Below, piece after piece: positions 974 to 64,000 of a stretch of DNA of 64,000 nt. Below the pieces are notes generated by a model, which saw only the letters and a list, made by a program, of their open reading frames with translations, was not told the DNA's origin and did no database searches. The translations under genes and the position numbers were made by a program. Source of the stretch: Apostichopus japonicus (Eukaryota > Echinodermata > Holothuroidea > Aspidochirotida > Stichopodidae); the NCBI RefSeq assembly GCF_037975245.1, contig NC_092578.1, positions 1,180,001 through 1,244,000 on the forward strand. The letters are read 5' to 3'. Position 1 is the first letter of the stretch, and every line of letters begins with the position of its first letter.

Positions 974-1565
974 TTGCTATTCACAAAATTGGCCGTATAT
1001 GTAGATATCTTGACAGCACATCCAGGAAGAGTGTTGTGCATTGCTATTGTGTCGTCACGCCTCGGTTACTGTAACAGACTTCTCTATGGACTACCGGCAA
1101 CTGAGATAAGCAAAGTTGCAGCGTGTGCAAAACTCACAGCTGCTCTGCTGGTTACTCGAAGCAGGTAGCATGAACATACCAAACCATTTCTTCAAGAACA
1201 TCACGTGCTACCCATTCTAGACCGTATGAAATACAAATTGCAAGGCTTTTAATACAGGGTGGCATGGCACCAATATATCTGACTGGTCTTGTGTCAGAAT
1301 ACCAGCCTTCTCGCTCCTTTTGCTCATCTTCACGGTGTTTGCTTTGTGGGCCATCATCTGTCCGTACCTCCTACTATGGTAGCTGGTCAATTCCGTTGCA
1401 GCTCCAGCAATATAGAACAACCTACCATTTTGTAGTGCAACATCTGTAAACTCCTTCAAACACTCTCTCAAAACTTACTTGCTCAAGGACTGAACTTTTG
1501 TTAAGCGCTCTGTGATTTTTCTATGTGCGGCACCATATAAAGCTACTGTATTATTATTATGATTA
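974..1565 (+). mobile_element. Degenerate CR1/L2-like LINE tail (copy 2)
   Basis: A second broken reverse-transcriptase C-terminus. The frame at 974-1168 contains 'SRLGYCNRLLYGLPATEI' (the usual form is LDYCNSLLYGLP). A frame near 1264-1449 continues with 'GLVSEYQPSRSFCSSS'. The 3' end at about 1502-1560 has the typical 'aagcgctctgtgat', then 'caccatataaa', then ATT-repeat ending. Frameshifts and stops show it is inactive. Its ATT tail ends about 20 bp before the acceptor of the mucin exon at 1584. Confidence 0.75.
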
Positions 1566-1583
1566 TCTTAATTGTCTACATAG

Positions 1584-11100: not shown

Positions 11101-14100
11101 TTATCTCTAGCCTCCAACATTACAAAATCATGTTTAAAATATATCTGCAATGTTATGATTGGTCAGGACCATTCATCACCATAAATTCAGTGTTGATGGA
11201 AACTGCATAAACTCTCATATTTAAATTGTTACTATCACCACACCTTGAGTTAGCCTGCACATGCTAACACCCACAGATAGAAGATGCTTGAGTTCAGCAG
11301 AGACGACTTTCAGAATAATCTGTTAGCTCTACAGAGTTTCACGACTGATTATTACTTTCCTGCAGGTGTGCAAATGTTACACGCTAATTGAGTGCTGAAT
11401 TGTAATAGACTAATGGCTGTTGAGCATCCCATTAAAATAATAATAATAAATGAACTTATAAAGTGCTAAAATCTACAAAGTATTCAATAGCGCTGTACAA
11501 CCCTAATAGAACGCCAACTTGAAAAAATGAGTCTTCAAGCAAGACTTGAACTTAAAAGACAAAATTATTCTAAGGTTGTGATCAATTTGCTTCAGAGAGA
11601 GTCACCTTTTAGCCTGGAATTGTTGTACATTGGACATAAAACTCTCTTAAAGTTGTGGGTGTCAGTGCAATGTGGTTTAATAGGTCTAAATATTAACTCA
11701 ATTCACCAATTATAGATCTATCTTTTATTTCTAGATATCTAGATGTAAACTCTTTCATATGTATCAATACCTCTCCCACATCCACCCCTCTCTTCACTTC
11801 CTATGTTATCATTAGATGATATTGTCCCAACCTTCTTTCCTTTGAAGTTTTTTTTTCCAGTTTTTTGTCCGAAAGTCTTGCCACAATCGGAAGATTCGTT
11901 AAAATTCAAGTCACTTCAAATGTATTTTTGTTCTGCACCAAATGATGGATATGATTCCAAATAAGTTTTTCCAAAAATTGAAAAAATTGACAACTTGACA
12001 AATTTAACCTTTCAAATCACAGGTGACTGTTCGTATGTCTTGGTAGAGGATAACTGTGGTTCCGATGAAGCAAGTTCCTTTAAAATTATGGTGGAGAATG
12101 TACCATGCGGTGCAGGAGGTGTCTCGTGTACCAAGGCTATTAAGTTCATCATCAGAGGTACTGAAATACGAATGGTTGGAGGAGCACATATATCTGTCAC
12201 TAACTCTGCTGATGCTGCCGGTTTTTCCTATCAGCTGAAGAGGGTCGGTATTTATGATGTGATAGAGACTAAAGTAGGTAAGACAACCAGTATTTACCTC
12301 TCTTTCCAGAGATATTACATTCAATTCAATATGAAGCATCTCCATGTGGGTGTGATATCAGACCCACTGTGGACCTTATTTTGTGCAAATTGATGACCAT
12401 AAGATGAAGAGCTACGGGATAATACCTTTTCAATAATGTGTGAGTGTCCTATCAAAGGTTTATAAAGCTTATGTCTTTTTACACATTCTCTTACACAGGC
12501 TCTTTAGCGGATAAGCAGTTTGCTAACAGTTTTTGTTTTATTTTGTCTTTATAAGTTGTTTGAAAATGCAGTGGAATAAGATATTTTATAGCTCAGTAAG
12601 GAATGGATGAAATATGAAGTTACCTGAGCAATGGCGTAGAGTCTTAATGTTAAAGTATCATATACCAGCGTTAAAGGAGGCATCCTGCTGGCAATCTGCT
12701 TCACCATAATTAAAAAATTAAAAAAGTTTACATTGTAAAACATTATCTGCTACGTTTAGTTTAGCAAACTTTCATCATGAGTGATAAACAAATGTGACAT
12801 TAAATTTTTGGGATGCATTGCTTGGTTAAAATAAGTTAAAGTTATAGGAGATCTCAGATTGCATTTTAAAGTGCAACTCAATCATTATTTTCCAGGTATC
12901 ACCCTCAAATGGGATAGAGGAACAACCATCTATGTCACTCTTGATCCACGATACATAAATAATGTGTGTGGTCTTTGCGGTAATTTCAATGGATTGGCAA
13001 GAGACGATTTTACTACCCCACAAGGGGAGTTAGAGGAGAACCCCGTCATCTTTGGACACTCTTGGAGGGCAAGCTTTTGTGAGCTTCCGTCGCCACCTTC
13101 CAATCCGTGCGACATAAACCCATCCAGAAGACAGTGGGCAGAATATTCATGTTCTATTATTAAACAGGGTATCTTCTTACCATGTCACAGTGAGGTGAGT
13201 ATGAAAGATGAAAGCGTTCAAAGCAACTTATCGTATTTTTGAAAGAGCAAAAGAATTATTGACCAGAATTTCAAGAGAAAATCTTTTTTTTTTTTCTATA
13301 TTTGTGTAGAAAAAATATTAAAATAGAAGAAAATATCATGACCAGACTTATGGTACTACAAATAGAATGTTGGATCAGAATTTGGAAGAGACAAGCTACA
13401 CTATCAACCCATATACATCTTCCACTTCCCTGCATTCCATTTGCCCCTCCCCTCCAGGTCACTCTTCGGTCCCCTTTTCCCTTTTCTTTTCTTTTCTTTT
13501 CTTTTCCTCTCCCTATTTCCCTCCTTTTAGCACCTCTCCTTTTCTCTGCCCTATTCTCTCCTTTGCCCTCTTCTTCTGCCTCCTCTTTTTTACTCCTTCC
13601 CCCTCCTATACTGTATCTCCTCTTTCCTCCTCTGCTGTCCCTCTTTCCCCCTCCTCTGTCCCCCTCTTTCCCCTGCTTTGTCTCCTTTTTCTCCCTTACT
13701 CTGTCCTTCTTTTCCTCTCCTCTGTCCCCTCTTCCCATTTTCTTTTACCCTCATGTCTCCTTTTCCCCCTCATCACCATCCACTTTTCCTCCTCTTTTTA
13801 CCTCTTATTTTCCTTTCTTCCTCTCTTCCCTCCTATGTCTCCTATTTCCTCTCCTCTTCCCCTCTCTTTTTCTTTGCCCCTGTTTTCTCCTTTGTCTCAC
13901 CCTTTTCCCCCCTACTCTATCTCTCTTTCCCCCTTCCTCTATCCCCTCTTTCCCCCTTCCTCTATCCCATCTTTCCCCTTACTGTATCCCTTCTTCCTCC
14001 CTATTCTGTCTCTTCTCCCCTCTTCTTTCCCATCCACCCCTACCTCTGTCCCTTTCTTCTTCTAACTGTTTTCTTGCTACGTCTTACAGGTTGAACCAGA

Positions 14101-15395
14101 AAAATACTATGCAGATTGTGTGATGGACACATGTGCCTGTGATAGAGGAGGGGACTGTGAGTGTTTGTGTACAGCTATTGCAGCCTACACTCAACAGTGT
14201 AGTGAAAATGGTGTTGCACTAAAATGGAGATCTGATGGAACTTGTGGTAAGTCTTCAGACTTGCTGCTTTAAAGTCATAAGCAATGCAGATAACTTCTTA
14301 GTTTGATAGAAGCGATACTAAATGACACTTTTGACCCGAAGTACCCAAAGCCTCAACCTACGTTAAAATCGCTCTCAAATAGCTCGTCAATTGAACCCAT
14401 CTGCATCATCAAAATGTGTTCTGTAGGTTACAGCAAGATGCTGCTGTATAGGGTATTTACTTACCAAAGTACAAAGCGGTTAGGACAGGATAAAGGACCA
14501 TGGCAATGTCAGTTAATAACTTAAATGCTTTTAAGAATGAAGCATGGAAGAGAAAGAAATGGTTTCTGGGGTCACCAGCTATCTATTTAATAGTAAAAGT
14601 TGTAGCATCTACGTAAATGTAGGTAGAATTCAGGTTTCATCTCAACCGTTGATGGTGAGTTATGTCAACTGTAAATAGAGAAAGATAAAAACTGTAAACA
14701 AAGTGGTCTACTGCAAGATATGCTGTCTTATAAAATCAGCAGCGACCTTAGGGTTCATAAATAACACACTGTCATCCCCAAGTGCTTAGAATTGACCCTC
14801 AACAGGATCTTTTTGGGTTAATTAAAGTATGCAATATTGCTTTGATGTTTTTCTTGAGTTAATAACTAACAATTAGTTCTTCATTTTGAGCATTAAACAA
14901 TCTCAACAGATCATGTTGATCAGATGGTCCATAGCTCAGGAATTTCAGTATAAACAAATCCATATATTTATATACAGGATTACAATGTGAAGATGGTAAA
15001 GAATACTCAGAATGTGGATCTTCTTGTGAGAGCGCCTGCTACGTAGAAGGACAGGAAGATTATGGCTGCGAAGAAACTTGTGTTGAGGGTTGCTTCTGTC
15101 CACCGGGACAGGTAGAATTTGAGGGTCGTTGCATTGTCCGTGATCTATGCCCTTGTTATTACAATGGCATTGAAATACCAGCCGGGGAAGACTTTGAAAA
15201 AGGGGACAAATGTTGGTGAGTGACTATTCAAGAATGATTTCCCACATTTGGTTCTATTTATATCCATTATAACTAACTATATGAAAAGACAGATTGAGAG
15301 AATGAGAGATATCACAAAAGATGAAATATTGTCAGTGAGTTAAACAGTGAAAAACTGCGAAACAGTTGTGAAATATATAGTTTAGAATTGTATAT

Positions 15396-21400: not shown

Positions 21401-24400
21401 AACTCCAGTTACGGAAAGCACAACAGGTAGGCTATAGTTCAAGTTTTTTATTGGATTTAATTTAGTGTTTTTGGTTTGTCATTGTGACCGTTCTTTGGCT
21501 TAACGGTCTGTGGTGACGCTTTCATATTGATCCACTCTCAGTAAAACATGCAAACTAAAAACCAGAAAGATGAGTCTTTTATCAAATGTTCTACCTCTCC
21601 TCTTCCTATTGCACCGTGAGAAAAGGGAAGAAATATCATAAAAAGGAAAGGGGGCTGGGGAATATAACCTGTGCAGAGTAAATTGGAATAGCATTGCTGT
21701 AGTACCCCACACAGAATTGGTGTTATAGTGTTTAATATGTAGAATAGAAAATAACTGAACTGGTTTATATTTATTTGTCAGTTGTAACCTCTCATTTATG
21801 CAAGAAGTGGTCATTAGAAAATCCTGGTACTGAACTCACAATTTAGAAATTACCAAAATTTACCCTAAAAGTATTATTTCCAGACCATCATAGTGTAATC
21901 CCGCAAATGAAATAAAAAACCTGATATGTCCTAGTTGTATTTCAACCTATTTAGCTAAATGTCTTGATGTTGATTTGTAACTGTGTAACTGCTTCAAATA
22001 TTGTCGTATTATTGAAATTGGTTCATTGTACTTGAAAATTTTGTCTTCTTCAGGTTTACCAACTGTACAGACATTAACACCCCCAACAGTAACAAACCTT
22101 TCAAAGGAATTGAGCACAACTACTCCAGGTAAAACAATTTCTTTTTTTGTTTGTCTAACTTTTTATATTGGAAAGAAGCTGAATGTCCTCTCTGAAAGAG
22201 AGTGTGAGAGAAATGTCAGAGAAAGAAGTAACATAGACATTAAGAACAGTGTGTATGACAAGCTGTCCATCAGTGTAATAACTGCATTGATGACTGTTGT
22301 ATGCTCTGTAGGGCTCCTGAAATAAGTAGGGCCCACTAGAGTGCAGAGCAAGACTAAGTAGGGCCCAACTAGGGTGCAGAGCAAGACTAAGGTATTTCCA
22401 AAGTTTCATACTTGTCTATGAAATAAGGCAAACTTTTCATGATTGAAATTGTACCCTTAGCAAAGTAGCGATCTATTTTATTTCAGGGAAGTCGCTGTTA
22501 CTTCAGATTTACATTGAATATAACATATTTTATCAACTTTTATGCTCTGAATAATGTTACGGTAAGTTGTGAACATGCTTTTGTCTATCCTGAAAATTAC
22601 CTAGACAGGCTAGCATAAAGAAGGACATCCTCCTCATTAAGTAACATTCACCTTAAGTCTACTCTAGTTCAATTTCTTGACTTTCATTTGTTTGTTTATG
22701 ATAAGCATGGATATCATTATTGTGATATATATCAAATAAATAATGAGTGTAACTTTCTTTCCCAGCTTCAACACCTTCTACTACACCAATGACAACCCCA
22801 TCGACCACTTCTTTTATTACTCCATCTACAACACCTGTTACAACCCCATCTACAACACCAATTACAACAGCATCCACCACTCCATCTGCAACTACAATGA
22901 CTACTCCATCCACAACACCAGTGACAACCCCATCCACTACTCCAATTTCAACCCCATCCACAACTTATGTACATACTCCATCCACAACTCCAGTGACAAC
23001 ACCATCAACTACTCCATCCACAACACCAGTTACAACTACCCCATCCACAACTCCATTCACTAGTGGTACACCATCAACAACTCCAGTGACAACTACTCCA
23101 TCTACAACACCAGTTACAACTACCCCATCAACAATTCCAGTGACAAGTACACCATCAACAACTCCAGTGACAACTACTCCATCTACAACACCAGAGACAA
23201 ATACTCCATCTACAACACCAGTTACAACCCCATCCACAACACCATTCACTAGTACACCATCAACAACTCCAGTGACAACTACACCATCAACAACTCCAGT
23301 GACAACTACTCCATCTATAACACCAGTGACAACCCCATCCACTACTCCAATTTCAACCCCATCCACAACTCATGTACATACTCCATCCACAACTCCAGTG
23401 ACAACTACTCCATCAACAACACCAGTAACAACACCATCAACTACTCCATCTTCAACACCAGTGACAACACCATCAATTACTCTATCTACAACACCAGTAA
23501 CAACACCATTCACTGTTGTAACAACGCCATCAACAACTCCAGTGACAACACCATCAACTACTCCATCTTCAACACCAACTACTGAAACTACACCATCAAC
23601 AACACCAGTGACAACACCATCAACTACTCTATCTACAACACCATTCACAACACCATTCACTGTTGTAACAACACCATCAACAACTCCAGTGACAACACCA
23701 TCAACTACTACATCTACAACACCAACTCCTGAAACTACACCATCAACTACTACATCTTCAACACCAACTCCTGAAACTACACCATCAACTACTACATCTT
23801 CAACACCAACTCCTGAAACGACACCATCAACTACTACATCTTCAACACCAACTCCTGAAACTACACCATCAACTACACCATCATCTTCAACACCAACTCC
23901 TGAAACTACACCATCAACTACACCATCATCTTCAACACCAACTCCTGAAACTACACCATCAACTACTACATCTTCAACACCAACTCCTGAAACTACACCA
24001 TCAACTACTACATCTTCAACACAAACTCCTGAAACTACACCATCAACTACTACATCTTCAACACCAACTCCTGAGACTACACCATCAACAACACCAGTTA
24101 CAACACCATCAACAACACCATTTTCAACACCAACTCCTGAAACTACACCATCAACTACTACACCATCATCTTCAACACCAACTCCTGAAACTACACCATC
24201 AACTACTACATCTTCAACACCAACTCCTGAAACTACACCATCATCTTCAACACCAACTCCTGAAACTACACCATCAACTACTACATCTTCAACACCAACT
24301 CCTGAAACTACACCATCAACTACTACATCTTCAACACCAACTCCTGAAACTACACCATCAACTACTACATCTTCAACACCAACTCCTGAAACTACACCAT

Positions 24401-27400
24401 CAACTACAACATCTTCAACACCAACTCCTGAGACTACACCATCAACAACACCAGTTACAACACCATCAACAACACCATTTTCAACACCAACTCCTGAAAC
24501 TACACCATCAACTACTACATCTTCAACACCAACTCCTGAAACTACACCATCAACTACTACATCTTCAACACCAACTCCTGAAACTACACCATCAACTACT
24601 ACATCTTCAACACCAACTCCTGAAACTACACCATCAACTACTACATCTTCAACACCAACTCCTGAAACTACACCATCAACTACTACATCTTCAACACCAA
24701 CTCCTGAAACTACACCATCAACTACTACATCTTCAACACCAACTCCTGAAACTACACCATCAACTACTACATCTTCAACACCAACTCCTGAAACTACACC
24801 ATCAACTACAACATCTTCAACACCAACTCCTGAGACTACACCATCAACAACACCAGTTACAACACCATCAACAACACCATTTTCAACACCAACTCCTGAA
24901 ACTACACCATCAACTACTACATCTTCAACACCAACTCCTGAAACTACACCATCAACTACTACATCTTCAACACCAACTCCTGAAACTACACCATCAACTA
25001 CTACATCTTCAACACCAACTCCTGAAACTACACCATCAACTACAACATCTTCAACACCAACTCCTGAGACTACACCATCAACAACACCAGTTACAACACC
25101 ATCAACAACACCATTTTCAACACCAACTCCTGAAACTACACCATCAACTACTACATCTTCAACACCAACTCCTGAAACTACACCATCAACTACTACATCT
25201 TCAACACCAACTCCTGAAACTACACCATCAACTACTACATCTTCAACACCAACTCCTGAAACTACACCATCAACTACAACATCTTCAACACCAACTCCTG
25301 AGACTACACCATCAACAACACCAGTTACAACACCATCAACAACACCATTTTCAACACCAACTCCTGAAACTACACCATCAACTACTACATCTTCAACACC
25401 AACTCCTGAAACTACACCATCAACTACTACATCTTCAACACCAACTCCTGAAACTACACCATCAACTACTACATCTTCAACACCAACTCCTGAAACTACA
25501 CCATCAACTACTACATCTTCAACACCAACTCCTGAAACTACACCATCAACTACTACATCTTCAACACCAACTCCTGAGACTACACCATCAACAACACCAG
25601 TTACAACACCATCATCAACACCAACTCCTGAAACTACACCATCAACTACTACATCTTCAACACCAACTCCTGAAACTACACCATCAACAACACCATTTTC
25701 AACACCAACTCCTGAGACTACACCATCAACAACACCAGTTACAACACCATCAACAACACCATTTTCAACACCAACTCCTGAAACTACACCATCAACTACT
25801 ACATCTTCAACACCAACTCCTGAAACTACACCATCAACTACTACATCTTCAACACCAACTCCTGAAACTACACCATCAACTACAACATCTTCAACACCAA
25901 CTCCTGAAACTACACCATCAACTACAACATCTTCAACACCAACTCCTGAGACTACACCATCAACAACACCAGTTACAACACCATCATCAACACCAACTCC
26001 TGAAACTACACCATCAACTACTACACCATCATCTTCAACACCAACTCCTGAAACTACACCATCAACTACTACACCATCATCTTCAACACCAACTCCTGAA
26101 ACTACACCATCAACTACTACATCTTCAACACCAACTCCTGAAACTACACCATCAACTACTACATCTTCAACACCAACTCCTGAAACTACACCATCAACTA
26201 CTACATCTTCAACACCAACTCCTGAAACTACACCATCAACTACTACATCTTCAACACCAACTCCTGAAACTACACCATCAACTACTACATCTTCAACACC
26301 AACTCCTGAAACTACACCATCAACTACAACATCTTCAACACCAACTCCTGAAACTACACCATCAACTACTACATCTTCAACACCAACTCCTGAAACTACA
26401 CCATCAACTACTACATCTTCAACACCAACTCCTGAGACTACACCATCAACAACACCAGTTACAACACCATCAACAACACCATTTTCAACACCAACTCCTG
26501 AAACTACACCATCAACTACTACACCATCATCTTCAACACCAACTCCTGAAACTACACCATCAACTACTACATCTTCAACACCAACTCCTGAAACTACACC
26601 ATCATCTTCAACACCAACTCCTGAAACTACACCATCAACTACTACATCTTCAACACCAACTCCTGAAACTACACCATCAACTACTACATCTTCAACACCA
26701 ACTCCTGAAACTACACCATCAACTACTACATCTTCAACACCAACTCCTGAAACTACACCATCAACTACAACATCTTCAACACCAACTCCTGAGACTACAC
26801 CATCAACAACACCAGTTACAACACCATCAACAACACCATTTTCAACACCAACTCCTGAAACTACACCATCAACTACTACATCTTCAACACCAACTCCTGA
26901 AACTACACCATCAACTACTACATCTTCAACACCAACTCCTGAAACTACACCATCAACTACTACATCTTCAACACCAACTCCTGAAACTACACCATCAACT
27001 ACTACATCTTCAACACCAACTCCTGAAACTACACCATCAACTACTACATCTTCAACACCAACTCCTGAAACTACACCATCAACTACTACATCTTCAACAC
27101 CAACTCCTGAAACTACACCATCAACTACAACATCTTCAACACCAACTCCTGAAACTACACCATCAACTACTACATCTTCAACACCAACTCCTGAAACTAC
27201 ACCATCATCTTCAACACCAACTCCTGAAACTACACCATCAACTACTACATCTTCAACACCAACTCCTGAAACTACACCATCAACTACACCATCATCTTCA
27301 ACACCAACTCCTGAAACTACACCATCAACTACTACATCTTCAACACCAACTCCTGAAACTACACCATCAACAACACCAGTTACAACACCATCAACAACAC

Positions 27401-30400
27401 CATTTTCAACACCAACTCCTGAAACTACACCATCAACTACTACATCTTCAACACCAACTCCTGAAACTACACCATCAACTACTACATCTTCAACACCAAC
27501 TCCTGAAACTACACCATCAACTACTACATCTTCAACACCAACTCCTGAAACTACACCATCAACTACACCATCATCTTCAACACCAACTCCTGAAACTACA
27601 CCATCAACTACAACATCTTCAACACCAACTCCTGAGACTACACCATCAACAACACCAGCTACAACACCATCAACAACACCATTTTCAACACCAACTCCTG
27701 AAACTACTACACCATCAACTACTACATCTTCAACACCAACTCCTGAAACTACACCATCAACTACTACATCTTCAACACCAACTCCTGAAACTACACCATC
27801 AACTACTACATCTTCAACACCAACTCCTGAAACTACACCATCAACTACAACATCTTCAACACCAACTCCTGAAACTACACCATCAACTACAACATCTTCA
27901 ACACCAACTCCTGAGACTACACCATCAACAACACCAGTTACAACACCATCAACAACACCATTTTCAACACCAACTCCTGAAACTACACCATCAACTACTA
28001 CATCTTCAACACCAACTCCTGAAACTACACCATCAACTACTACATCTTCAACACCAACTCCTGAAACTACTACACCATCAACTACTACATCTTCAACACC
28101 AACTCCTGAAACTACACCATCAACTACTACACCATCATCTTCAACACCAACTCCTGAAACTACACCATCAACTACTACATCTTCAACACCAACTCCTGAA
28201 ACTACACCATCAACTACACCATCATCTTCAACACCAACTCCTGAAACTACACCATCAACTACTACACCATCATCTTCAACACCAACTCCTGAAACTACAC
28301 CATCAACTACACCATCATCTTCAACACCAACTCCTGAAACTACACCATCAACTACTACATCTTCAACACCAACTCCTGAAACTACACCATCAACTACACC
28401 ATCATCTTCAACACCAACTCCTGAAACTACACCATCAACTACTACATCTTCAACACCAACTCCTGAGACTACACCATCAACAACACCAGTTACAACACCA
28501 TCAACAACACCATTTTCAACACCAACTCCTGAAACTACACCATCAACTACTACATCTTCAACACCAACTCCTGAAACTACACCATCAACTACTACATCTT
28601 CAACACCAACTCCTGAAACTACACCATCAACTACTACATCTTCAACACCAACTCCTGAAACTACACCATCAACTACAACATCTTCAACACCAACTCCTGA
28701 AACTACACCATCAACAACACCAGTAACAACACCATCAACAACACCATTTTCAACACCAACTCCTGAAACTACACCATCAACTACTACATCTTCAACACCA
28801 ACTCCTGAAACTACACCATCAACTACTACATCTTCAACACCAACTCCTGAAACTACACCATCAACTACTACATCTTCAACACCAACTCCTGAAACTACAC
28901 CATCAACTACAACATCTTCAACACCAACTCCTGAAACTACACCATCAACAACACCAGTAACAACACCATCAACAACACCATTTTCAACACCAACTCCTGA
29001 AACTACACCATCAACTACTACATCTTCAACACCAACTCCTGAAACTACACCATCAACTACTACATCTTCAACACCAACTCCTGAAACTACACCATCAACT
29101 ACTACATCTTCAACACCAACTCCTGAAACTACACCATCAACTACTACATCTTCAACACCAACTCCTGAGACTACACCATCAACAACACCAGTTACAACAC
29201 CATCAACAACACCATTTTCTACACCAACTCCTGAAACTACACCATCAACTACTACACCATCATCTTCAACACCAACTCCTGAAACTACACCATCAACTAC
29301 TACATCTTCAACACCAACTCCTGAAACTACACCATCAACTACTACATCTTCAACACCAACTCCTGAAACTACACCATCAACTACTACATCTTCAACACCA
29401 ACTCCTGAAACTACACCATCAACTACTACATCTTCAACACCAACTCCTGAAACTACACCATCAACTACAACATCTTCAACACCAACTCCTGAGACTACAC
29501 AATCAACAACACCAGTTACAACACCATTTTCAACACCAACTCCTGAAACTACACCATCAACTACTACACCATCATCTTCAACACCAACTCCTGAAACTAC
29601 ACCATCAACTTCTACACCATCATCTTCAACACCAACTCCTGAAACTACACCATCAACTACTACATCTTCAACACCAACTCCTGAAACTACACCATCAACT
29701 ACTACATCTTCAACACCAACTCCTGAAACTACACCATCAACTACTACATCTTCAACACCAACTCCTGAAACTACACCATCAACTACTACATCTTCAACAC
29801 CAACTCCTGAAACTACACCATCAACTACAACATCTTCAACACCAACTCCTGAGACTACACCATCAACAACACCAGTTACAACACCATCAACAACACCATT
29901 TTCAACACCAACTCCTGAAACTACTACACCATCAACTACTACATCTTCAACACCAACTCCTGAAACTACACCATCAACTACTACACCATCATCTTCAACA
30001 CCAACTCCTGAAACTACACCATCAACTACTACACCATCATCTTCAACACCAACTCCTGAAACTACACCATCAACTACTACACCATCATCTTCAACACCAA
30101 CTCCTGAAACTACACCATCAACTACACCATCATCTTCAACACCAACTCCTGAAACTACACCATCAACTACTACATCTTCAACACCAACTCCTGAAACTAC
30201 ACCATCAACTACACCATCATATTCAACACCAACTCCTGAAACTACACCATCAACTACTACATCTTCAACACCAACTCCTGAAACTACACCATCAACTACA
30301 ACATCTTCAACACCAACTCCTGAGACTACACCATCAACAACACCAGTTACAACACCATCAACAACACCATTTTCAACACCAACTCCTGAAACTACACCAT

Positions 30401-33400
30401 CAACTACTACATCTTCAACACCAACTCCTGAAACTACACCATCAACTACTACATCTTCAACACCAACTCCTGAAACTACACCATCAACTACTACATCTTC
30501 AACACCAACTCCTGAAACTACACCATCAACTACAACATCTTCAACACCAACTCCTGAAACTACACCATCAACAACACCAGTAACAACACCATCAACAACA
30601 CCATTTTCAACACCAACTCCTGAAACTACACCATCAACTACTACATCTTCAACACCAACTCCTGAAACTACACCATCAACTACTACATCTTCAACACCAA
30701 CTCCTGAAATTACACCATCAACTACTACATCTTCAACACCAACTCCTGAAACTACACCATCAACTACAACATCTTCAACACCAACTCCTGAAACTACACC
30801 ATCAACAACACCAGTAACAACACCATCAACAACACCATTTTCAACACCAACTCCTGAAACTACACCATCAACTACTACATCTTCAACACCAACTCCTGAA
30901 ACTACACCATCAACTACTACATCTTCAACACCAACTCCTGAAACTACACCATCAACTACTACATCTTCAACACCAACTCCTGAAACTACACCATCAACTA
31001 CTACATCTTCAACACCAACTCCTGAGACTACACCATCAACAACACCAGTTACAACACCATCAACAACACCATTTTCTACACCAACTCCTGAAACTACACC
31101 ATCAACTACTACACCATCATCTTCAACACCAACTCCTGAAACTACACCATCAACTACTACATCTTCAACACCAACTCCTGAAACTACACCATCAACTACT
31201 ACATCTTCAACACCAACTCCTGAAACTACACCATCAACTACTACATCTTCAACACCAACTCCTGAAACTACACCATCAACTACAACATCTTCAACACCAA
31301 CTCCTGAGACTACACAATCAACAACACCAGTTACAACACCATTTTCAACACCAACTCCTGAAACTACACCATCAACTACTACACCATCATCTTCAACACC
31401 AACTCCTGAAACTACACCATCAACTTCTACACCATCATCTTCAACACCAACTCCTGAAACTACACCATCAACTACTACATCTTCAACACCAACTCCTGAA
31501 ACTACACCATCAACTACTACATCTTCAACACCAACTCCTGAAACTACACCATCAACTACTACATCTTCAACACCAACTCCTGAAACTACACCATCAACTA
31601 CTACATCTTCAACACCAACTCCTGAAACTACACCATCAACTACAACATCTTCAACACCAACTCCTGAGACTACACCATCAACAACACCAGTTACAACACC
31701 ATCAACAACACCATTTTCAACACCAACTCCTGAAACTACTACACCATCAACTACTACATCTTCAACACCAACTCCTGAAACTACACCATCAACTACTACA
31801 CCATCATCTTCAACACCAACTCCTGAAACTACACCATCAACTACTACACCATCATCTTCAACACCAACTCCTGAAACTACACCATCAACTACTACACCAT
31901 CATCTTCAACACCAACTCCTGAAACTACACCATCAACTACACCATCATCTTCAACACCAACTCCTGAAACTACACCATCAACTACTACATCTTCAACACC
32001 AACTCCTGAAACTACACCATCAACTACACCATCATATTCAACACCAACTCCTGAAACTACACCATCAACTACTACATCTTCAACACCAACTCCTGAAACT
32101 ACACCATCAACTACAACATCTTCAACACCAACTCCTGAGACTACACCATCAACAACACCAGTTACAACACCATCAACAACACCATTTTCAACACCAACTC
32201 CTGAAACTACACCATCAACTACTACATCTTCAACACCAACTCCTGAAACTACACCATCAACTACACCATCATATTCAACACCAACTCCTGAAACTACACC
32301 ATCAACTACTACATCTTCAACACCAACTCCTGAAACTACACCATCAACTACACCATCATCTTCAACACCAACTCCTGAGACTACACCATCAACAACACCA
32401 GTTACAACACCATCAACAACACCATTTTCAACACCAACTCCTGAAACTACACCATCAACTACTACACCATCATCTTCAACACCAACTCCTGAAACTACAC
32501 CATCAACTACTACATCTTCAACACCAACTCCTGAAACTACACCATCAACTACTACATCTTCAACACCAACTCCTGAAATTACACCATCAACTACTACATC
32601 TTCAACACCAACTCCTGAAACTACACCATCAACTACACCATCATCTTCAACACCAACTCCTGAAACTACACCATCAACAACACCAGTTACAACACCATCA
32701 ACAACACCATTTTCAACACCAACTCCTGAAACTACACCATCAACTACTACATCTTCAACACCAACTCCTGAAACTACACCATCAACTACTACATCTTCAA
32801 CACCAACTCCTGAAACTACACCATCAACTACTACATCTTCAACACCAACTCCTGAAACTACACCATCAACTACAACATCTTCAACACCAACTCCTGAGAC
32901 TACACCATCAACAACACCAGTTACAACACCATCAACAACACCATTTTCAACACCAACTCCTGAAACTACACCATCAACTACTACATCTTCAACACCAACT
33001 CCTGAAACTACACCATCAACTACTACATCTTCAACACCAACTCCTGAAACTACACCATCAACTACTACATCTTCAACACCAACTCCTGAAACTACACCAT
33101 CAACTACTACATCTTCAACACCAACTCCTGAGACTACACCATCAACAACACCAGTTACAACACCATCAACAACACCATTTTCTACACCAACTCCTGAAAC
33201 TACACCATCAACTACTACACCATCATCTTCAACACCAACTCCTGAAACTACACCATCAACTACTACACCATCATCTTCAACACCAACTCCTGAAACTACA
33301 CCATCAACTACTACATCTTCAACACCAACTCCTGAAACTACACCATCAACTACTACATCTTCAACACCAACTCCTGAAACTACACCATCAACTACTACAT

Positions 33401-36400
33401 CTTCAACACCAACTCCTGAAACTACACCATCAACTACTACATCTTCAACACCAACTCCTGAAACTACACCATCAACTACAACATCTTCAACACCAACTCC
33501 TGAAACTACACCATCAACTACTACATCTTCAACACCAACTCCTGAAACTACACCATCAACAACACCAGTGACAACACCATCAACAACACCATTCACTGAT
33601 GTCACTACACCATCAACAACTCCAGTGACAACACCATCAACTACTACATCTTCAACACCAGTGACAACACCATCTACCACTCCTGTTACTACTACATCCA
33701 CAACTCCTGAAACTACCCCATCCACAACACCATCAACAACACCATTCACTGATGTCACTACACCATCAACAACTCCAGTGACAACTCCATCAACTACTCC
33801 ATCTTCAACACCAGTGACAACACCATCAACAACACCATTCACTGTTGTAACTACACCATCAACAACTCTAGTGACAACACCATCAACTACTCTATCTACA
33901 ACACCATTCACTGTTGTAACAACACCAGTAACAACTCCAGTGACAACACCATCAACTACTCTATCTACAACACCATCCACAACACCATTCACAACTCCTG
34001 TGACAACACATTCTACAACTCCAGTCACAACTCCATCAACAACTCCTGTGACGACAGCCTCCACTAGTACCATTCCAACCTGTACTGAAGGTAAGATTGA
34101 AAAATATTGTTTAGTGAAGTGGTACTCTCAGTCCGATATCTATGCTACAATTATGCTCTCTTAATTTCTCTTACAAATGCTACTAGATTATTCTATTTTG
34201 AGAAATGTCTGATACATGCTAGGCCAATACAGTTATTGTTGAAATTCAGCTGTGAGTGCCAAAAAAAAAAAAAAATCCCTATGGTGGTATTACAGCAGTG
34301 AGATTATTGGGTTATAGTGGAAGCAGATCACATCAACAGACATGTATGCAACTTCTACAGACTTATGTAGCAAACATGAGGCAAACATCTCTGCAGTACA
34401 TGTAATGGTTAAATTTCAGGAATACAGGTTTTTAGTCTTGCAGTTACTATGTTACATGGTTTCAGATCTTCAAAGCTAGTGAGGGCAGTATGCAAATATC
34501 AGCCACCAAGGTCAGATCTGACCAAGACAACCTTTCCCTTTCGATCAGACCCTGTGCTCGATTATTCAGGATTCAATTAATTTTGAATTACTGTGCATTT
34601 ACATTAGACCCTGGCGTGCTTGGTATCAGTGGCCACTCATACATACACACATACATACACGCACATTCGCTCAGGCCCACTGAACAGGAACTTGAGGTTC
34701 CTTTATTGGAAGGAAAGCCCCATAACCATGAGCCATATGATATACAGCACTGCTTTTAATGCCTATTACTATATTTTGTCAAATTATACACAAACAACAT
34801 TGAAAATTTGACTGTCACTGCCTGATCCCTGGTCAACCATGATTCTGCTGCAAGCATAGTTGAAATTTAACACTAAGCATAGGGGATTCCACACCATGCA
34901 TGTTTAGTATAAAACAGAGCTCAAGGAGCAGCTGACACACTTGACTGAGCAAATTATGCAGCAGATGGGATGATTGTGACTATGATACAGCTAGTTTGCA
35001 GTTACCAACTGACAGATTCCCCAAATATATGTTCCCAGGTATCGACATATTTAAGCGGTTTTAATGGTTTGAGTTTTCATGAATTCATCTTGTTAAGTTG
35101 TTGGTTTATATAAATCCCTTTACTCCTTTTAGTTTCAGAATGTACCGGCTGCCTCTATGATGGCACTTTGTATGAGGTAAGTGAAACTTTCTTTGTAGGT
35201 AGATACATGTGGCTAATATAATATATGCATAATATCTCTATGAATATTCATGTTCTGTCAATTTGAAATGAAACCATTGAGAGCCTCATACACCTGTACA
35301 GCAAGGCTTGGCTTCATAGAGCATTTCTTCATGGTTCGGTACAGTGTACTTTGAATTTCTGTAGTAATTGATTACTTTAATATGCAAGCTTCCACTGGGT
35401 TTCATGTTTTGATGTGAAATTGTCAATAGCTTTATAACCTAACAACTCTGTTCTAACTAACAATTTCTTTGTTCTTACAACTTAATTTCACACTCAATTT
35501 TGGGGTTTTGTTGATTTTCCTTACATATTTTTAATTAATTAATGTCTCTTGAAATCCCTGGCCTCTGCTGCTACATGGGTTGTGTTTAATGAAAATACAG
35601 TCAGATTATCTTATGGTTGGAGGTTTCATTTAATTTCTCTTCATTTGGATCTTATCTTTTTCTCTGGACAGTATGGAGACACAATAAGCAATGACAGTTG
35701 CTCGTTCATATACTGCAGTGAAAGTGATGGTGTTATCGTGAATGAAGAGGAATGCAATTTAGAATGTGACGTAAGTTTTTCTTAAGCCTATATGTTATCA
35801 ATAGATTCTTCGTAAGTTTTTCTTAAGCCTATATGTTATCAATAGATTCTTCTTCATTGAGACTTAATAATTTATTTCAGTATTGATTTGAATATGTTTA
35901 ATATCATTATCAGTCCAGTTGCATGCTTTGATCTTACTTGGATCCCTTTTATTCAAAACAGTTGCTAGGTGACCCCAAGTTTCATTTTCATCATCTTGAC
36001 TCCTTCTCCAGTGGTAGATGTTATGGCCTGGAGTAGGAGTCTTCATAGAAAGGTGGTTTCCCCTCCCCTATATAAGAGTCTGTTACATGGTTAAGGAAGT
36101 TTAGTTGCAAAAATGGGTTCATATTTTGCAACTATTAAAGTAATTTAAGTTTCAAAACTTTTTCTTGCACTTCTTTTCCACAAATATTGGGACCTTCTTT
36201 TTCTTTAGAACATTTTTGGCCACCATTTAACATTTTTGGCAATTCTTAAAAGATTTTGCAACCCTTGCAAATAGTTTGGTGACACTCAATAAAAATTGTT
36301 GGGGGGGCAGGAGGGGGGGGTCGTGTCTGACATCTTACTTTTATTGAAAGAATAGTATGAAAGTTATGAGAATGTTGCTGATGGAATACTTTGGTCATAA

Positions 36401-39081
36401 GAAAAATAAAACTTGCTAAAAATTTGTTTGAGTCACTTTCAAAGTTAGTTGCTGTAGTCATGACATTTATGGTTATCATATTTGCTGATGTGTGTTTGAT
36501 ATGAAATAGCAAATAGTACAAGAACACAAAAAGGGGACAAACTAAAACGAATGACAGCGAATGACCGAATGACAATTGACTTTGTACAGGGTTAATTATC
36601 ATTTGCGAATGACAGCGAATGACAGCGAATGACAGCGAATGACAACGAATGACAACGAAGGACAGTGTTGAGTGGAGATAGAATGATTAACGCAGTGGAG
36701 TAAATGCGGTTATTGGTTTTCTGCGCAAAAATGATTTGAGGAAAATCGCATGTTACGGGGTTGCAGGGTTTTGGTGTAATTTACGGATAGAAACCACAGG
36801 GGAAGTTTTTGTGTGAGAATGCGCTTGAGTGCTGTGCTTTTTACCTCTGTAGAAAGATATAGAAGATATAGAAAGATATAGAAAGATAACTGAAGCCTTT
36901 TCAAGATTATAGTATTGGTAGTTTCTAACAATTAATATCGTAAAAATGACGTTAAATTTACTTTTTAAAATCAAACTTACAATTTCGCTTACTATAAGGT
37001 GCGTTTTTATCTTGTCCGTACATTATTAGATCTAGATACCCACGAAGTCTGAACTATGATATGAACTTGAAGCAAATGTCTGTGCTGTCATTACTGTCAT
37101 TCGTTTTAGTCAACGCATTTTTTTAGTGTGCAAAACATATTGTCATTCGTTATGTGTAACGCAATTGTCATTCGTTTTAGTAACACCCCACAAAAAGCTC
37201 CTTGGCACTGTTGTATTTTGATATGATTGTTTGACATTTTTCTTTCAGGGTGATCTTGTGTACAGAGAAAACGAATGTTGCCCAGTTTGTAGTAAGTATA
37301 ATAGGGAATATGGTTGATGATAAGAGTAAAGTAGAAAGGAATTCTAGTCTTGAACATATTACTCTGAATATTTGCTAATCCCAGAAGTATCTATTGCAAG
37401 GAGTTAGTTTTGTTCACATATAACATTGGTATCTTAGAATAAATATTATGTTAATGTGGCTACTGAACTGTTATGCCCAACCGTACCAGTGTTCTAATAT
37501 GATGAAATGAGGCATGGCTTTCTGAGTAACCATGACAAACAAATGGGATATAACAGATATCTGTCAATTTAGCTGAACCTCCACCTTTCTCATCTACATC
37601 TTAAGATGTCCCAAGAAAATTAACTGGGCCTTCTTAAAAATATTATTAGTTAAATTTTATAACTTCTTTGTTTTCATTTTGGAAAACTCAAATTTCCCAG
37701 TGTCATTACTTTTCCTTATTGTTTAGGTGGATGATTTATGCAGAGCTGGTGTTCTGCCCTTTGTGTTTTGATCTTGTACACTCATCCGATTAGAGAGGGG
37801 ATGTTGGGGGGCAGATGTTTGATCTACCTAAGTCCCTTCCTAGTAGCAATATTACACATCTCACTAATGATAATTTTTTTAAATTTGTTTACAGCTCGTA
37901 AAACACCAGATTGTGCAAAGGTGTCAACTATTGAAATGAACTTCAAGCACAAGGGATGCCGCTATAACAAACCACTTCTGATGACATCCTGTGGTGGAAC
38001 CTGCTCATCATATTCTAAAGTCATAACCAGACCTCCTTACCTGGAAACCTCATGCACCTGCTGCAAGCCCTTTAAATTCATCAACAAAACTTTGGAACTA
38101 GTCTGTCCAAATGGGTCATCCAAGTACTATAAACACCTAATTATTGAAGAGTGTCAATGTCAAAGCTGTGAATTTCAGCTAGATTTTGATGGTGGATCAG
38201 AATCTCGCTCTGATCCACACTCCAAGCCAAAGTCTAAACCAGTCTCCAAGCCAAAGTCTAAACCAGTCTCCAACAAGCCAAAGCCTAAACCAGTCTCCAA
38301 CAAGCCAAAGCCTAAACCAGTCTCCAACAAGCCAAAGCCTAAACCAGTCTCCAACAAGCCAAAGCCTAAACCAGTCTCCAACAAGCCAAAGCCTAAACCA
38401 GTCTCCAACAAGCCAAAGACTAAACCAGTCTCCAACAAGCCAAAGCCTAAACCAGTCTCCAACAAGCCAAAGCCTAAACCAGTCTCCAACAAGCCAAAGC
38501 CTAAACCAGTCTCCAACAAGCCAAAGCCTAAACCAGTCTCCAACAAGCCAAAGCCTAAACCAGTCTCCAACAAGCCAAAGACTAAACCAGTCTCCAACAA
38601 GCCAAAGCCTAAACCAGTCTCCAACAAGCCAAAGCCTAAACCAGTCTCCAACAAGCCAAAGACTAAACCAGTCTCCAACAAGCCAAAGCCTAAACCAGTC
38701 TCCAACAAGCCAAAGCCTAAACCAGTCTCCAACAAGCCAAAGCCTAAACCAGTCTCCAACAAGCCAAAGACTAAACCAGTCTCCAACAAGCCAAAGCCTA
38801 AACCAGTCTCCAACAAGCCAAAGACTAAACCAGTCTCCAACAAGCCAAAGCCTAAACCAGTCTCCAACAAGCCAAAGCCTAAACCAGTCTCCAACAAGCC
38901 AAAGCCTAAACCAGTCTCCAACAAGCCAAAGACTAAACCAGTCTCCAACAAGCCAAAGCCTAAACCAGTCTCCAACAAGCCAAAGCCTAAACCAGTCTCC
39001 AACAAGCCAAAGCCTAAACCAGTCTCCAACAAGCCAAAGCCTAAACCAGTCTCCAACAAGCCAAAGACTAAAAAAAACTAA
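1584..39081 (+). CDS. Gel-forming secreted mucin (MUC2/5/6/19-type), 5'-partial, 23 exons in window
   Basis: Secreted polymer-forming mucin that would be O-glycosylated in the Golgi and build mucus or an adhesive gel. Exons: 1584-1841, 2842-3031, 3880-4104, 4733-4907, 5886-6019, 6954-7063, 8138-8190, 9004-9247, 10332-10444, 12023-12277, 12896-13194, 14090-14246, 14978-15215, 15919-16043, 18974-19027, 19231-19272, 19438-21426, 22054-22128, 22766-34090, 35139-35176, 35672-35770, 37249-37291, 37895-39081. Every junction has GT-AG and the phases chain without a break to the TAA at 39079, giving 5808 codons plus stop. The order VWD-C8-TIL-E, TIL'-E', VWD-C8-TIL-E, PTS, VWC, CTCK matches the D2, D', D3 and C-terminal parts of VWF-related mucins. 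The first exon opens inside a domain, so the signal peptide and D1 lie upstream. No D4 assembly or CysD domain is present, which resembles MUC19 and MUC6. Exact orthology cannot be set by eye. Confidence 0.9.
4953..4972. repeat. Poly-C tract
   Basis: A C-rich stretch that becomes an almost pure C run, about 50 bp into the intron after the 4907 exon end. The opposite strand is poly-G. Such runs are assembly-error prone. Confidence 0.8.
5287..5808. mobile_element. hAT-like MITE with 8-bp TSD
   Basis: Non-autonomous DNA transposon of 522 bp in the intron 4908-5885. Left end CAGGGTTTCCCTAACT and the reverse complement of the right end CAGGGGTTCCCTAACT form terminal inverted repeats. The flanking direct repeat CTATAGGA is perfect at 5279-5286 and 5809-5816. 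CAGGGG-type ends plus an 8-bp target duplication are the hAT hallmark. It has no transposase; the short ORFs inside carry no recognisable domain. Confidence 0.88.
6370..6730. repeat. Diverged tandem duplication in intron
   Basis: Within the intron 6020-6953, a segment with a 'ctggaattc...tgttag/ta...' core, then 'agcaaagttcaac', then 'gctcaaatagaaggca' recurs about 155-160 bp later with substitutions (near 6488-6570 and 6645-6725). It looks like an old local duplication. Nothing else is seen in this intron. Confidence 0.55.
9004..10386 (+). CDS. Mucin D' region: TIL' and E' modules
   Basis: Exon 9004-9247 encodes a complete trypsin-inhibitor-like (TIL) cysteine-rich module, from '[18 protein letters not shown]' to '[19 protein letters not shown]', with the regular C-x-C spacing of TIL. 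The exon breaks inside a Trp codon-like position (phase 2), and exon 10332-10444 continues with '[19 protein letters not shown]', the E' ending, before VWD3 starts. The arrangement TIL'-E' between D2 and D3 is the D' region of VWF and gel-forming mucins, which helps covalent multimer assembly. The intron between them holds the 44-bp minisatellite. Confidence 0.85.
9338..9913. repeat. 44-bp intronic minisatellite, about 13 copies
   Basis: Thirteen or so copies of a 44-bp unit (ctgaacatatgtattgtag, then ttccagtctagtactcagaa, then atcca) in near-perfect tandem. Only a few substitutions are seen, such as 'acccag' for 'actcag' near 9459 and 'gaccatatgtattatag' near 9517. It sits 90 bp after the donor of the TIL' exon. 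High identity suggests recent expansion and likely length polymorphism. Confidence 0.95.
10332..16043 (+). CDS. Mucin D3-like assembly: VWD, C8, TIL, E
   Basis: Exons 10332-10444, 12023-12277, 12896-13194, 14090-14246, 14978-15215 and 15919-16043. VWD begins at '[19 protein letters not shown]', continues with '[13 protein letters not shown]', and reaches '[17 protein letters not shown]' in exon 12896-13194, so here the CGLC thiol motif and calcium loop are intact. C8 spans the end of that exon and exon 14090-14246. TIL is in 14978-15215 ('CGSSCESAC', then '[11 protein letters not shown]', then '[13 protein letters not shown]'), and E closes in 15919-16043 with '[17 protein letters not shown]'. 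The last exon then turns into Thr/Ser/Pro (TPTPTSTP), the start of the mucin region. In the family, D3 makes the N-terminal intermolecular disulfides. A GDPH sequence occurs at 10396-10407. Confidence 0.88.
10693..10904 (-). mobile_element. tRNA-derived SINE, reverse orientation
   Basis: Reverse-strand copy of the SINE also found at about 41063-41287. Read on the minus strand it has 'cagtggttaacgctgatgcc', a B-box-like 'agttcgagtg', then the body shared with the other copy ('ttgataagcc'-like and 'gcttcttcg'-like segments) and the end 'gagttcctgcttgcagga'. The head beyond the A-box has diverged. It lies in the intron 10445-12022 of the mucin gene. The forward ORF through it is not a gene. Confidence 0.85.
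13435..14078. repeat. Long polypyrimidine tract (C/T-rich, about 640 bp)
   Basis: Almost pure C and T on the plus strand (cctcttt..., ttcccc... motifs), filling most of the intron 13195-14089 and ending just before the acceptor at 14090. ORFs on both strands here are low-complexity artefacts. Mirror-like purine/pyrimidine tracts of this length can form triplex (H-DNA). Confidence 0.9.
15384..15436. repeat. (TA)n microsatellite
   Basis: Alternating TA run with a few interruptions in the intron 15216-15918. A poly-G run also occurs at 16161-16176 in the next intron. Confidence 0.85.
17004..18953. mobile_element. Composite, nested DNA-transposon insertion
   Basis: A 1.95-kb insertion in the intron 16044-18973. 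Ends are CAGGCGCGTATCCAGG on the left and the reverse complement of CCTGGATACGCACCTG on the right, an inverted repeat with one mismatch (hAT-like). The flanks share ATATT but I cannot define a clean 8-bp duplication. Inside are a GC-rich motif 'tctaagcggagcgccacca' at about 17046 and a variant at about 18286, also found in the element at 58308; a nested element (17683-18133); G- and C-runs near 17711 and 18450; and a C/T-rich block at 18785-18910. Several insertions have probably accumulated. No intact transposase is seen. Confidence 0.7.
17683..18133. mobile_element. hAT-like MITE nested in the composite insertion
   Basis: 451-bp element. Left end CATAGGCGTAGGAG and the reverse complement of the right end CAAAGGCGTAGGAG are inverted repeats. 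The target duplication ACTACACA is perfect at 17675-17682 and 18134-18141. A run of C follows the left end. It has no transposase domain; short ORFs on both strands are spurious. Confidence 0.85.
18974..19272 (+). CDS. Two duplicated PTS mini-exons of the mucin
   Basis: Exons 18974-19027 (54 bp) and 19231-19272 (42 bp), both phase 1 to phase 1. They encode '[18 protein letters not shown]' and '[13 protein letters not shown]'. The exons, their 'atttcag' acceptors and their 'gtaaga' donors are nearly the same, as is some flanking intron, so one copy arose by tandem duplication about 257 bp away. Because both are symmetric (multiples of 3), either could be skipped without a frame change. Confidence 0.75.
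19438..21426 (+). CDS. Mucin PTS exon 1 (about 663 residues)
   Basis: A 1989-bp exon of Thr/Ser/Pro with no Cys. The base unit is 8-9 residues ([26 protein letters not shown]). Three larger blocks start with [14 protein letters not shown] at about 19600, 20044 and 20704; the last two are 660 bp apart and almost identical. Acceptor 'tttcacag' ends at 19437 and the donor 'gtaggc' starts at 21427. The residues are potential mucin-type O-glycosylation sites. Reverse-strand ORFs (TGVVDGVV repeats) are mirror images of this array. Confidence 0.9.
22054..22128 (+). CDS. Short PTS linker exon of the mucin
   Basis: A 75-bp phase 1 to 1 exon encoding '[18 protein letters not shown]' then 'LSTTTP'. It follows a 'tcttcttcag' acceptor and precedes 'gtaaaa'. 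Unlike its neighbours it is not repetitive. It is supported by phase and composition only, so it is less certain than the flanking exons. Confidence 0.65.
22766..34090 (+). CDS. Giant mucin PTS exon, 11,325 bp, 14-residue repeats
   Basis: One uninterrupted exon (about 3775 residues), acceptor 'ttcccag' ending at 22765 and donor 'gtaaga' at 34091. From 22766 to about 23700 and from about 33560 to 34060 it is an irregular PSTTPVTT-type array. The centre is a homogeneous array of a 42-bp unit encoding [14 protein letters not shown], with variants [10 protein letters not shown] and a spacer [22 protein letters not shown] every few units that marks a higher-order period. No Cys occurs until 'TCTEG' at the very end. 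Each unit has one Glu, so the backbone itself is anionic. Single giant central exons are known in vertebrate gel-forming mucins. The reverse strand is also open for over 3500 codons, a side effect of the 3n repeat. Exact copy number depends on assembly quality. Confidence 0.92.
29214..32060 (+). repeat. About 1.8-kb tandem duplication inside the giant PTS exon
   Basis: Rare variants recur in the same order: 'attttct' at 29214 and 31071, 'acacaatc' (Thr-Gln) at 29497 and 31312, and 'atcatattc' (Ser-Tyr) at 30216 and 32031. The offsets are 1857, 1815 and 1815 bp; the 42-bp difference is one repeat unit. This shows a multi-unit block duplicated recently. Confidence 0.85.
35139..37291 (+). CDS. 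Mucin VWC domain (three exons)
   Basis: Exons 35139-35176, 35672-35770 and 37249-37291. They encode '[13 protein letters not shown]', then '[18 protein letters not shown]' onward, then '[14 protein letters not shown]'. The C-x2-C start, the central C-x4-C and the terminal CCPVC are the pattern of a von Willebrand factor type C domain, here about 60 residues. It links the PTS region to the cystine knot, as in MUC19 and other gel-forming mucins. The third exon follows the Mutator-like insertion. Confidence 0.87.
35771..35852. repeat. 41-bp tandem duplication that copies a splice donor
   Basis: The intron start 'gtaagtttttcttaagccta' and the next 21 bases are repeated exactly from 35812. The second copy therefore offers a decoy GTAAGT donor 41 bp downstream. 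Using it would add 41 bp and shift the reading frame. Confidence 0.9.
36534..37188. mobile_element. Mutator-like foldback MITE with 9-bp TSD
   Basis: 655-bp element in the intron 35771-37248. Left end GGGACAAACTAAAACGAAT and the reverse complement of the right end GGGTGTTACTAAAACGAAT are inverted repeats, continuing into GACA. The 9-bp direct repeat CACAAAAAG flanks it at 36525-36533 and 37189-37197. Inside the left arm is a minisatellite of 'gaatgacagc' (about 36545-36665) with matching 'tgtcattcg' in the right arm. A 9-bp duplication suits Mutator-like elements. No transposase is present. Confidence 0.82.
37895..39081 (+). CDS. Mucin last exon: cystine knot (CTCK) plus Lys/Pro repeat tail
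   Basis: The exon starts after 'tttacag' at 37894 in phase 1. The first about 95 residues form the C-terminal cystine knot: '[18 protein letters not shown]', '[12 protein letters not shown]', '[12 protein letters not shown]', 'LELVCPNG', '[15 protein letters not shown]'. This CTCK pattern dimerises VWF and mucins through disulfides in the ER. After 'EFQLDFDGG' the protein does not end: about 30 repeats of NKPKPKPVS (with NKPKTKPVS variants) follow, about 290 residues of Lys/Pro-rich tail, to the TAA at 39079-39081. Mucins normally end at or just after the knot. The tail has no Cys, few Thr, and a high positive charge. Two AATAAA signals follow. Confidence 0.9.
38219..39075 (+). repeat. 27-bp coding minisatellite (about 30 copies)
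   Basis: Tandem 27-bp units 'aacaagccaaagcctaaac' then 'cagtctcc', with a c-to-a change ('aagact') giving Thr in some units. Two shorter 24-bp type units (KPKSKPVS) lead in. Identity is very high. Because 27 is a multiple of 3, several other frames also stay open ([27 protein letters not shown]); these are shadows. Confidence 0.95.
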
Positions 39082-39356: not shown

Positions 39357-39484
39357 AATAAAGAATATTAAAAGATTCCACAATAATAATATCAACTGCA
39401 TAGATTTACTACAGTGATTTCATAATTACTGATTCTAAAACAATTACTTTGAAAAGGGTAAATAACCTGTCAAAATGTAATAAA
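39357..39484 (+). promoter_or_regulatory. Polyadenylation signals of the mucin gene
   Basis: AATAAA at 39357-39362 and again at 39479-39484, about 276 and 398 bp after the stop. Either could end the transcript. Confidence 0.6.
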
Positions 39485-62995: not shown

Positions 62996-64000
62996 CAAAT
63001 GGTCCAAAGGTCAAACCCTTGTCCTATTTTTTGCCCAAATCGCCACTTTTTTAATATTTCCCAAAATTGGACCTGCGGTGTGTGGCGCCCTTTGGATTCC
63101 TTTTCTGGTGGCAAGAGTAGTATAAACACTCATATTTGTTGGAAAAATGAAATTTCAAAACCATATCTCAACATCATTTCATATGGAATTTAAATGACTA
63201 AAACTTTGTTGAATGACACTTTTGTCTTGGGGGAGAAGCGTCTACTGGGTGCTGGGAGTCCGTTCTACGTATCCAGCGAGAAATTTAAGAACTTTCATTT
63301 TTGGCCCAAATTCTCCAATTTTGTAAGGCTATACCCTTATGATTTTGTCTGATTTTGGCCCAAATCGCAACTTTTTTAATATTTCCCAAAATTGGACCTG
63401 CGGTGTGTGGTGCCCTTTGGATTCCTTTTCAGGTGGCAAGAGTAGTATAAACACTCATATTTGTTGGAAAAATGAAATTTCAAAACCATATCTCGACACC
63501 ATTTCATATCGAACTTAAATGACTAAAACTTCGTCAAATGACACTTTTGTCTCGAGAAAAGCGTCTACTGGGTGCTGGGAGTCCGTTCTACGTATCCAGC
63601 GAGAAATTTAAGAACTTTCATTTTTGGCCCAAATTCTCCAATTTTGTAAGGCTATACCCTTATGATTTTGGCCCAAATCGCAACTTTTTCAATATTTCCC
63701 AAAATTGGACCTGCGGTGTGTGGCGCCCTTTGGATTCCTTTTCAGGTGGCAAGAGTAGTATAAACACTCATATTTGTTGGAAAAATGAAATTTCAAAACC
63801 ATATCTGGACATCATTTCATATCGAACTTAAATGACTAAAACTTTGTTGAATGACACTTTTGTCTTGGGGGAGAAGCGTCTACTGGGTGCTGGGAGTCCG
63901 TTCTACGTATCCAGCGAGAAATTTAAGAACTTTCATTTTTGGCCCAAATTCTCCAACTTTGTAAGGCTATACCCTTATGATTTTGTCTGATTTTGGCTCA
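62996..64000. repeat. Satellite array, about 313-325-bp unit, runs off the end
   Basis: At least three copies: the landmark 'aatatttcccaaaattggac' occurs at 63053, 63378 and 63691 (spacing 325 and 313 bp). The 12-bp difference is loss of a 'tgtctgattttg' segment. The units are over 90% alike by eye. ORFs inside are repeat artefacts. Confidence 0.93.

Follow-up and report, generated by a model that had tools for sequence, protein, structure and literature searches.

Where does a gel-forming mucin end, and what may follow its C-terminal cystine knot (CTCK)? The question is raised by a 64,000-nucleotide stretch of the genome of the sea cucumber Apostichopus japonicus (NC_092578.1, positions 1,180,001 to 1,244,000; hereafter the window), in which a gene on the forward strand encodes a cystine knot with a long run of Lys/Pro repeats behind it. 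The last exon of this gene (37895-39081) opens after the acceptor ATTTGTTTACAG and closes with the stop codon TAA. The knot that it encodes scores 39.4 bits against Pfam PF00007 (cut-off 24) and, in addition, 26.5 bits against Pfam DAN (cut-off 22); it matches MUC2 in the PDB at E 3.4e-9 and VWF at a separate E-value of 3.7e-4, and in the VWF alignment (4nt5) all 10 of the 10 query cysteines within it pair with cysteine, as tallied by eye. Beyond the knot, as the original prediction had it, the same frame runs on in the same exon through 38221-39078 to the stop. We take this to be the C-terminus of an echinoderm gel-forming mucin, most likely that of A. japonicus, and ask what its tail is and what such a tail might do.

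The tail begins with two degenerate units of the SKPKSKPV type, continues with 29 nine-residue units and finishes with NKPKTKKN. By exact pattern the 29 comprise 23 copies of NKPKPKPVS and six of NKPKTKPVS, and the "about 30 copies" first claimed are thus borne out as 29 units, two degenerate ones and one cut-off unit. Its 286 residues are 97 Lys (34%, the predicted third), 86 Pro, 34 Ser, 31 Val, 31 Asn and 7 Thr, with no Asp, Glu, Arg, Gln, Cys or aromatic residue. The charge comes to about +96 at pH 7.4 and the calculated pI to 12, both computed without the last Asn. Lys-Pro repeats are expected to be extended and flexible, and Lys-Pro bonds are poor trypsin substrates; since 86 of the 97 lysines stand directly before Pro, trypsin would hardly cleave the tail, which may therefore survive digestion and escape ordinary proteomics. 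The high density of lysine would also suit a substrate for covalent cross-linking by enzymes of transglutaminase or lysyl oxidase type, in a secretion that sticks or hardens. The tail, however, offers neither Gln nor an aromatic residue, and the same 86 lysines before Pro lie in what is a poor context for many Lys-directed enzymes; we consider a role of this kind very improbable.

Other copies of the tail and relatives of the knot were sought within the animal's own genome (671.58 Mb, 35 contigs). Tandem Repeats Finder describes the array as 31.6 copies of a 27-bp unit with 97% matches and 0% indels. With three mismatches or fewer the 27-mer occurs 31 times in the genome, 31 of 31 inside the array (reversed control 0), and this confinement rules out a dispersed satellite or mobile repeat. 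A degenerate codon pattern for NKPKPKP gives 23 matches, again all inside the array (reversed control 3), and a shortened tail used as protein query finds seven places in the array and one weak place elsewhere, on contig C1 (E 0.003, 27% identity). The shorter pattern PKPKPKP yields 29 matches at 15 places, which is the level of chance, the reversed control also giving 29, and these places were rejected as tails; the six of the 15 that were inspected hold Lys-Pro runs of three or four dipeptides, and under the filter used for those six the C1 locus has no Lys-Pro run. The array is not due to chance, and the tail is private to the window gene within this genome.

Is the array translated? Because four of its six frames are open throughout, and because one frame stays open in 76% of shuffled 27-mers, an open frame alone is no proof of coding. 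The evidence for coding is the setting: the tail carries straight on from the CTCK, and the exon that holds both agrees in splice phase with the preceding one. The four open frames could be taken to mean that the tail never reaches the protein, being removed by splicing or a frame error, or that it is an artefact of assembly. Against this, CTCK and tail share one exon, in which a scan finds no splice donor matching six of eight consensus bases, the splice phase agrees with the exon upstream, and the published A. japonicus assembly (671.6 Mb, 34 scaffolds, 23 chromosomes) was built from HiFi reads (PMC10344927). We find the absence of the tail from the protein scarcely credible.

A second alternative concerns not the reality of the tail but its use. 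The 29 units vary at a single codon (CCT/ACT) with no synonymous change; the array is therefore young, and it speaks neither for selection nor against it. This uniformity is what one would expect of a neutral or nearly neutral coding minisatellite, grown by slippage at a gene end where it does little harm, varying in length between animals and serving no function. Such an origin would also agree with a unit that has no other genome match at three mismatches or fewer, with the presence in the window of another young-looking array (44 bp x 13.1 at 9337-9913, 0% indels) and with the closest paralogue of the knot, which has no tail. It fits less well with the lysines, three of which are kept in every unit, the two degenerate first ones included, and a +96 polycation on a secreted polyanion would hardly be inert. 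We rate this explanation as unlikely, if far from negligible.

The paralogue in question lies at C18:9962167-9962448 (L002; 45% identity, E 9e-22 by BLAST, and 42% in a separate alignment). Like the window gene it has VWC-like exons upstream and the knot in its last exon, as judged by eye. It ends PKIPQLGVIADEDSTVQT, 18 residues after CEFQ, with a net charge of -2.4 and no K/P repeat. Three further knots (C18:5232321, C8:22409406 and C8:30675583) likewise have no K/P tail, so that the tail is found on one of the five knots located, by searches that may miss weak matches; with none on the other four CTCK-type matches, the idea of a tailed mucin family here was rejected. As to what these other knots belong to, L007, which stops at the knot and whose neighbours are TSP1/TIL-like (by eye), is presumably akin to SCO-spondin, L008 is gremlin-like in appearance and without a K/P tail, and L003 we take to resemble the glycoprotein-hormone knot. 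Upstream of L002, in L005/L006 (C18:9965501-9985500), exon blocks recur several times almost unchanged, one recurring exon encoding ...VLTPLEDTSELFEDLDTSLEPNSFDVFVLED... with short Thr-rich frames alongside; the stretch looks to be a recently duplicated modular gene.

The identity of the gene depends on what lies upstream of the knot (see the table). A five-exon model running from the main exon rich in Pro, Thr and Ser (PTS) to the last exon has AG before every exon and GT after the first four, and it reads without a stop from PTS through VWC and CTCK to the tail. Further upstream stand the D assemblies, whose Pfam scores were obtained on open-frame pieces joined with X rather than on spliced exons. 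D2 gives 48 bits for VWD (piece 1516-1842) and 42.4 for C8 (piece 4718-4972), D3 gives 116.2 for VWD, 53.3 for C8 and 35 for TIL, and a D1 assembly outside the window, at locus L001, gives 30.7 for C8 and 24.5, exactly at the cut-off, for TIL. Three D-type assemblies, long PTS repeats and a C-terminal cystine knot with its knot cysteines mark the gene, by its domains, as the gel-forming mucin that had been predicted. The anionic core posited with it is likewise seen: the 3774 residues of the main PTS exon include 2543 Ser+Thr, 863 Pro, 219 Glu and 2 Asp, with neither Lys nor Arg, so that this exon alone gives each chain 221 acidic residues in its backbone, any acidic sugars not counted. The first PTS block has 395 Ser+Thr, 175 Pro, 3 Glu, 1 Arg and no Asp or Lys. 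Neither the gene start nor a signal peptide was located in the open frames of L009 and L001, which were inspected by eye with no predictor run.

Table. Features of the mucin gene in the window, in order of position.
Feature	Position	Strand	Basis or remark
Second VWD/C8 assembly (D2), several exons	1516..6028	+	Outer limits taken from open frames rather than exons
TIL-like Cys-rich exon (D'-like)	8949..9257	+	Pfam TIL 22.6 bits (cut-off 24.5)
Third VWD/C8/TIL assembly (D3), with CGLCGNFNG	10300..15216	+	Limits taken from open frames
First PTS block, stop-to-stop frame, 672 codons	19419..21434	+	Composition
Main PTS exon, 11325 bp, Glu in TPETTPS-type mucin repeats	22766..34090	+	AG acceptor, GT donor; five-exon model
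VWC exon 1	35139..35176	+	Five-exon model
VWC exon 2	35672..35770	+	Five-exon model
VWC exon 3, ends CCPVC, phase fits CTCK exon	37249..37291	+	Five-exon model
CTCK and 17-residue link	37895..38220	+	Pfam PF00007, PDB MUC2/VWF matches; last exon of five-exon model
Lys/Pro repeat tail, 286 residues	38221..39078	+	Same exon and frame as CTCK
Stop codon TAA	39079..39081	+	
AATAAA, possible poly(A) signal	39357..39362	+	Hexamer match only

Cationic tails behind mucin knots are known, with a scattered occurrence, and that of MUC2 is short. The original prediction, which had gel-forming mucins ending at or near the knot, is on this point not borne out as worded: in MUC2, according to PMC10082768, an unstructured tail with two double-Arg motifs follows the knot and is cut off by furin. 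The cationic C-terminus of rat Muc2 is said, in the title of Xu 2000, to aid dimer formation, and a chicken MUC2 paper describes the cationic domain as conserved in rodents and not found in chickens. MUC2 (PMC10082768) resembles the window gene in being a gel-forming mucin with an unstructured basic segment directly behind its cystine knot, a feature that the window gene has with +96 over the tail. It differs in having more C-terminal VWC domains and a tail that bears double-Arg motifs and is removed, whereas the tail of the window gene is built of Lys/Pro repeats over 286 residues and lacks a furin motif. What is new in the window gene is therefore the length of the tail, its repeat structure, its Lys/Pro make-up and the absence of a furin motif.

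With MUC2 as precedent, one might suppose that the sea cucumber tail, too, works only while dimers form inside the cell and is removed afterwards. A motif scan, however, finds no RX(K/R)R of the furin type in the last exon, whose only basic pairs are RK at the first codons and KK at the very end, and we hold such transient use to be improbable.

Other knots offer partial parallels. The CK domain of VWF, which forms dimers, is likewise a cystine knot, with the paired cysteines noted above; in both structures compared (4nt5 and 9qrv) the aligned chains stop six residues past the match, with no repeat tail. The long form of PDGF-A and VEGF189 carry a basic retention tail behind a cystine knot that binds sulphated glycans, and these tails are short, unrepeated and on growth factors. 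Literature searches for the KPKPKPVS unit and for lysine-rich knot extensions gave no match; those on cationic tails showed, among the matches listed, no mucin tail by title or abstract start, and those on gel-forming mucins, echinoderm mucins and sea cucumber mucus did not, among the matches listed, describe this protein. A few-term search of PMC13228809, PMC9080433 and PMC10475054 found nothing on knot tails. In the A. japonicus literature a 'Mucin-2' changes strongly when the skin ulcerates, and a 'mucin 5ac' is lowered after pathogen challenge, both without a comparable sequence.

What, then, might the tail do? The reading that we favour, and to which we give about even chances, is that it would be a retained polycation on the knot dimer, binding polyanions such as the gene's own Glu-rich core. 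Behind the knot, a short segment rich in Lys and Pro may have grown as a coding minisatellite until it formed a polycation 286 residues long, flexible and extended, which would be translated and kept. Mucin knot domains join chains as dimers (PMC10082768), and there would accordingly be two tails at each C-terminal junction, lying side by side and together near +192. These would bind the Glu-rich glycosylated cores of neighbouring mucins as well as sulphated glycans; PMC10381214 reports highly sulphated chondroitin sulphates in the echinoderm matrix. The first role of the tails would be to help dimers form and pack tightly inside the secretory granule, for which the cationic segment behind the MUC2 knot, said to aid dimer formation, offers a precedent. 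Later, in the slime, the tails might provide ionic cross-links between chains or surface contacts, if the binding resists the salt of sea water.

Several points weigh against this retained, charge-binding tail. Sea water strongly screens simple charge contacts, which would weaken extracellular cross-linking more than packing in the granule. The almost identical repeat units of the tail hold nothing indicative of selection. A cationic end is not required for a knot of this kind, since that of the L002 paralogue is acidic. The domain assignments also have soft places: three Pfam scores fall below their cut-offs, namely the VWD of D1 (20.4 bits, cut-off 22.9), the D'-like TIL (22.6) and the VWC over its joined exons (22.3, cut-off 27.6), and at the place expected for the TIL of D2 the Cys-rich piece 5795-6028 has no Pfam match at E <= 0.01.

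The retained polycation could be taken a step further. On a view that we advance tentatively, as rather unlikely, the gene would encode a block-polyampholyte mucin, a single chain with a long glycosylated polyanion as its core and, apart from it, a polycationic block at the C-terminus. The secretion could then condense with itself inside the granule and knit together again at each knot, with no need for cationic proteins from elsewhere. Among the matches listed, the literature searched showed no gel-forming mucin designed in this way.

Other observations were made along the way. Between the D'-like TIL exon and D3, probably in an intron, the 44-bp tandem repeat at 9337-9913 has 13.1 copies with 98% matches and 0% indels. 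The intron before the last VWC exon holds about six copies of the decamer GCGAATGACA (36605-36665), and a 313-bp tandem repeat of three copies with 93% matches lies at 63028-63985. An open frame at 45666-47051 has CCCH zinc-finger motifs and is, we presume, akin to the dihydrouridine synthase DUS3L. Elsewhere in the genome VWD domains cluster on C15, C10 and C1 (at least 164 matches, for example at C15:15.82-15.94 Mb), and VWD genes appear strongly expanded. The COX1 gene on contig C35, judged by eye against the usual COX1 sequence, reads well only if AAA is taken as Asn, ATA as Ile and TGA as Trp, a code shared by echinoderms and flatworms. A second set of COX1 pieces, at C29:14745-31219, exists besides the presumed mitochondrial contig C35 and is either a nuclear copy or a misassembled scaffold.

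In the usual view mucins are polyanions whose condensation requires calcium or the addition of cationic proteins. Read from its DNA, the locus presents a real, unusual end of a gel-forming mucin gene. If the reading of its tail as a retained polycation is true, a mucin that brings a long polycation of its own to the dimer knot would offer a natural test of the part that charge plays in mucin packing and in the strength of slime, and its easily made peptide repeat would be of use in materials work. The known case of a cationic knot tail, that of MUC2, would then gain an echinoderm counterpart, one that is retained and built of repeats.

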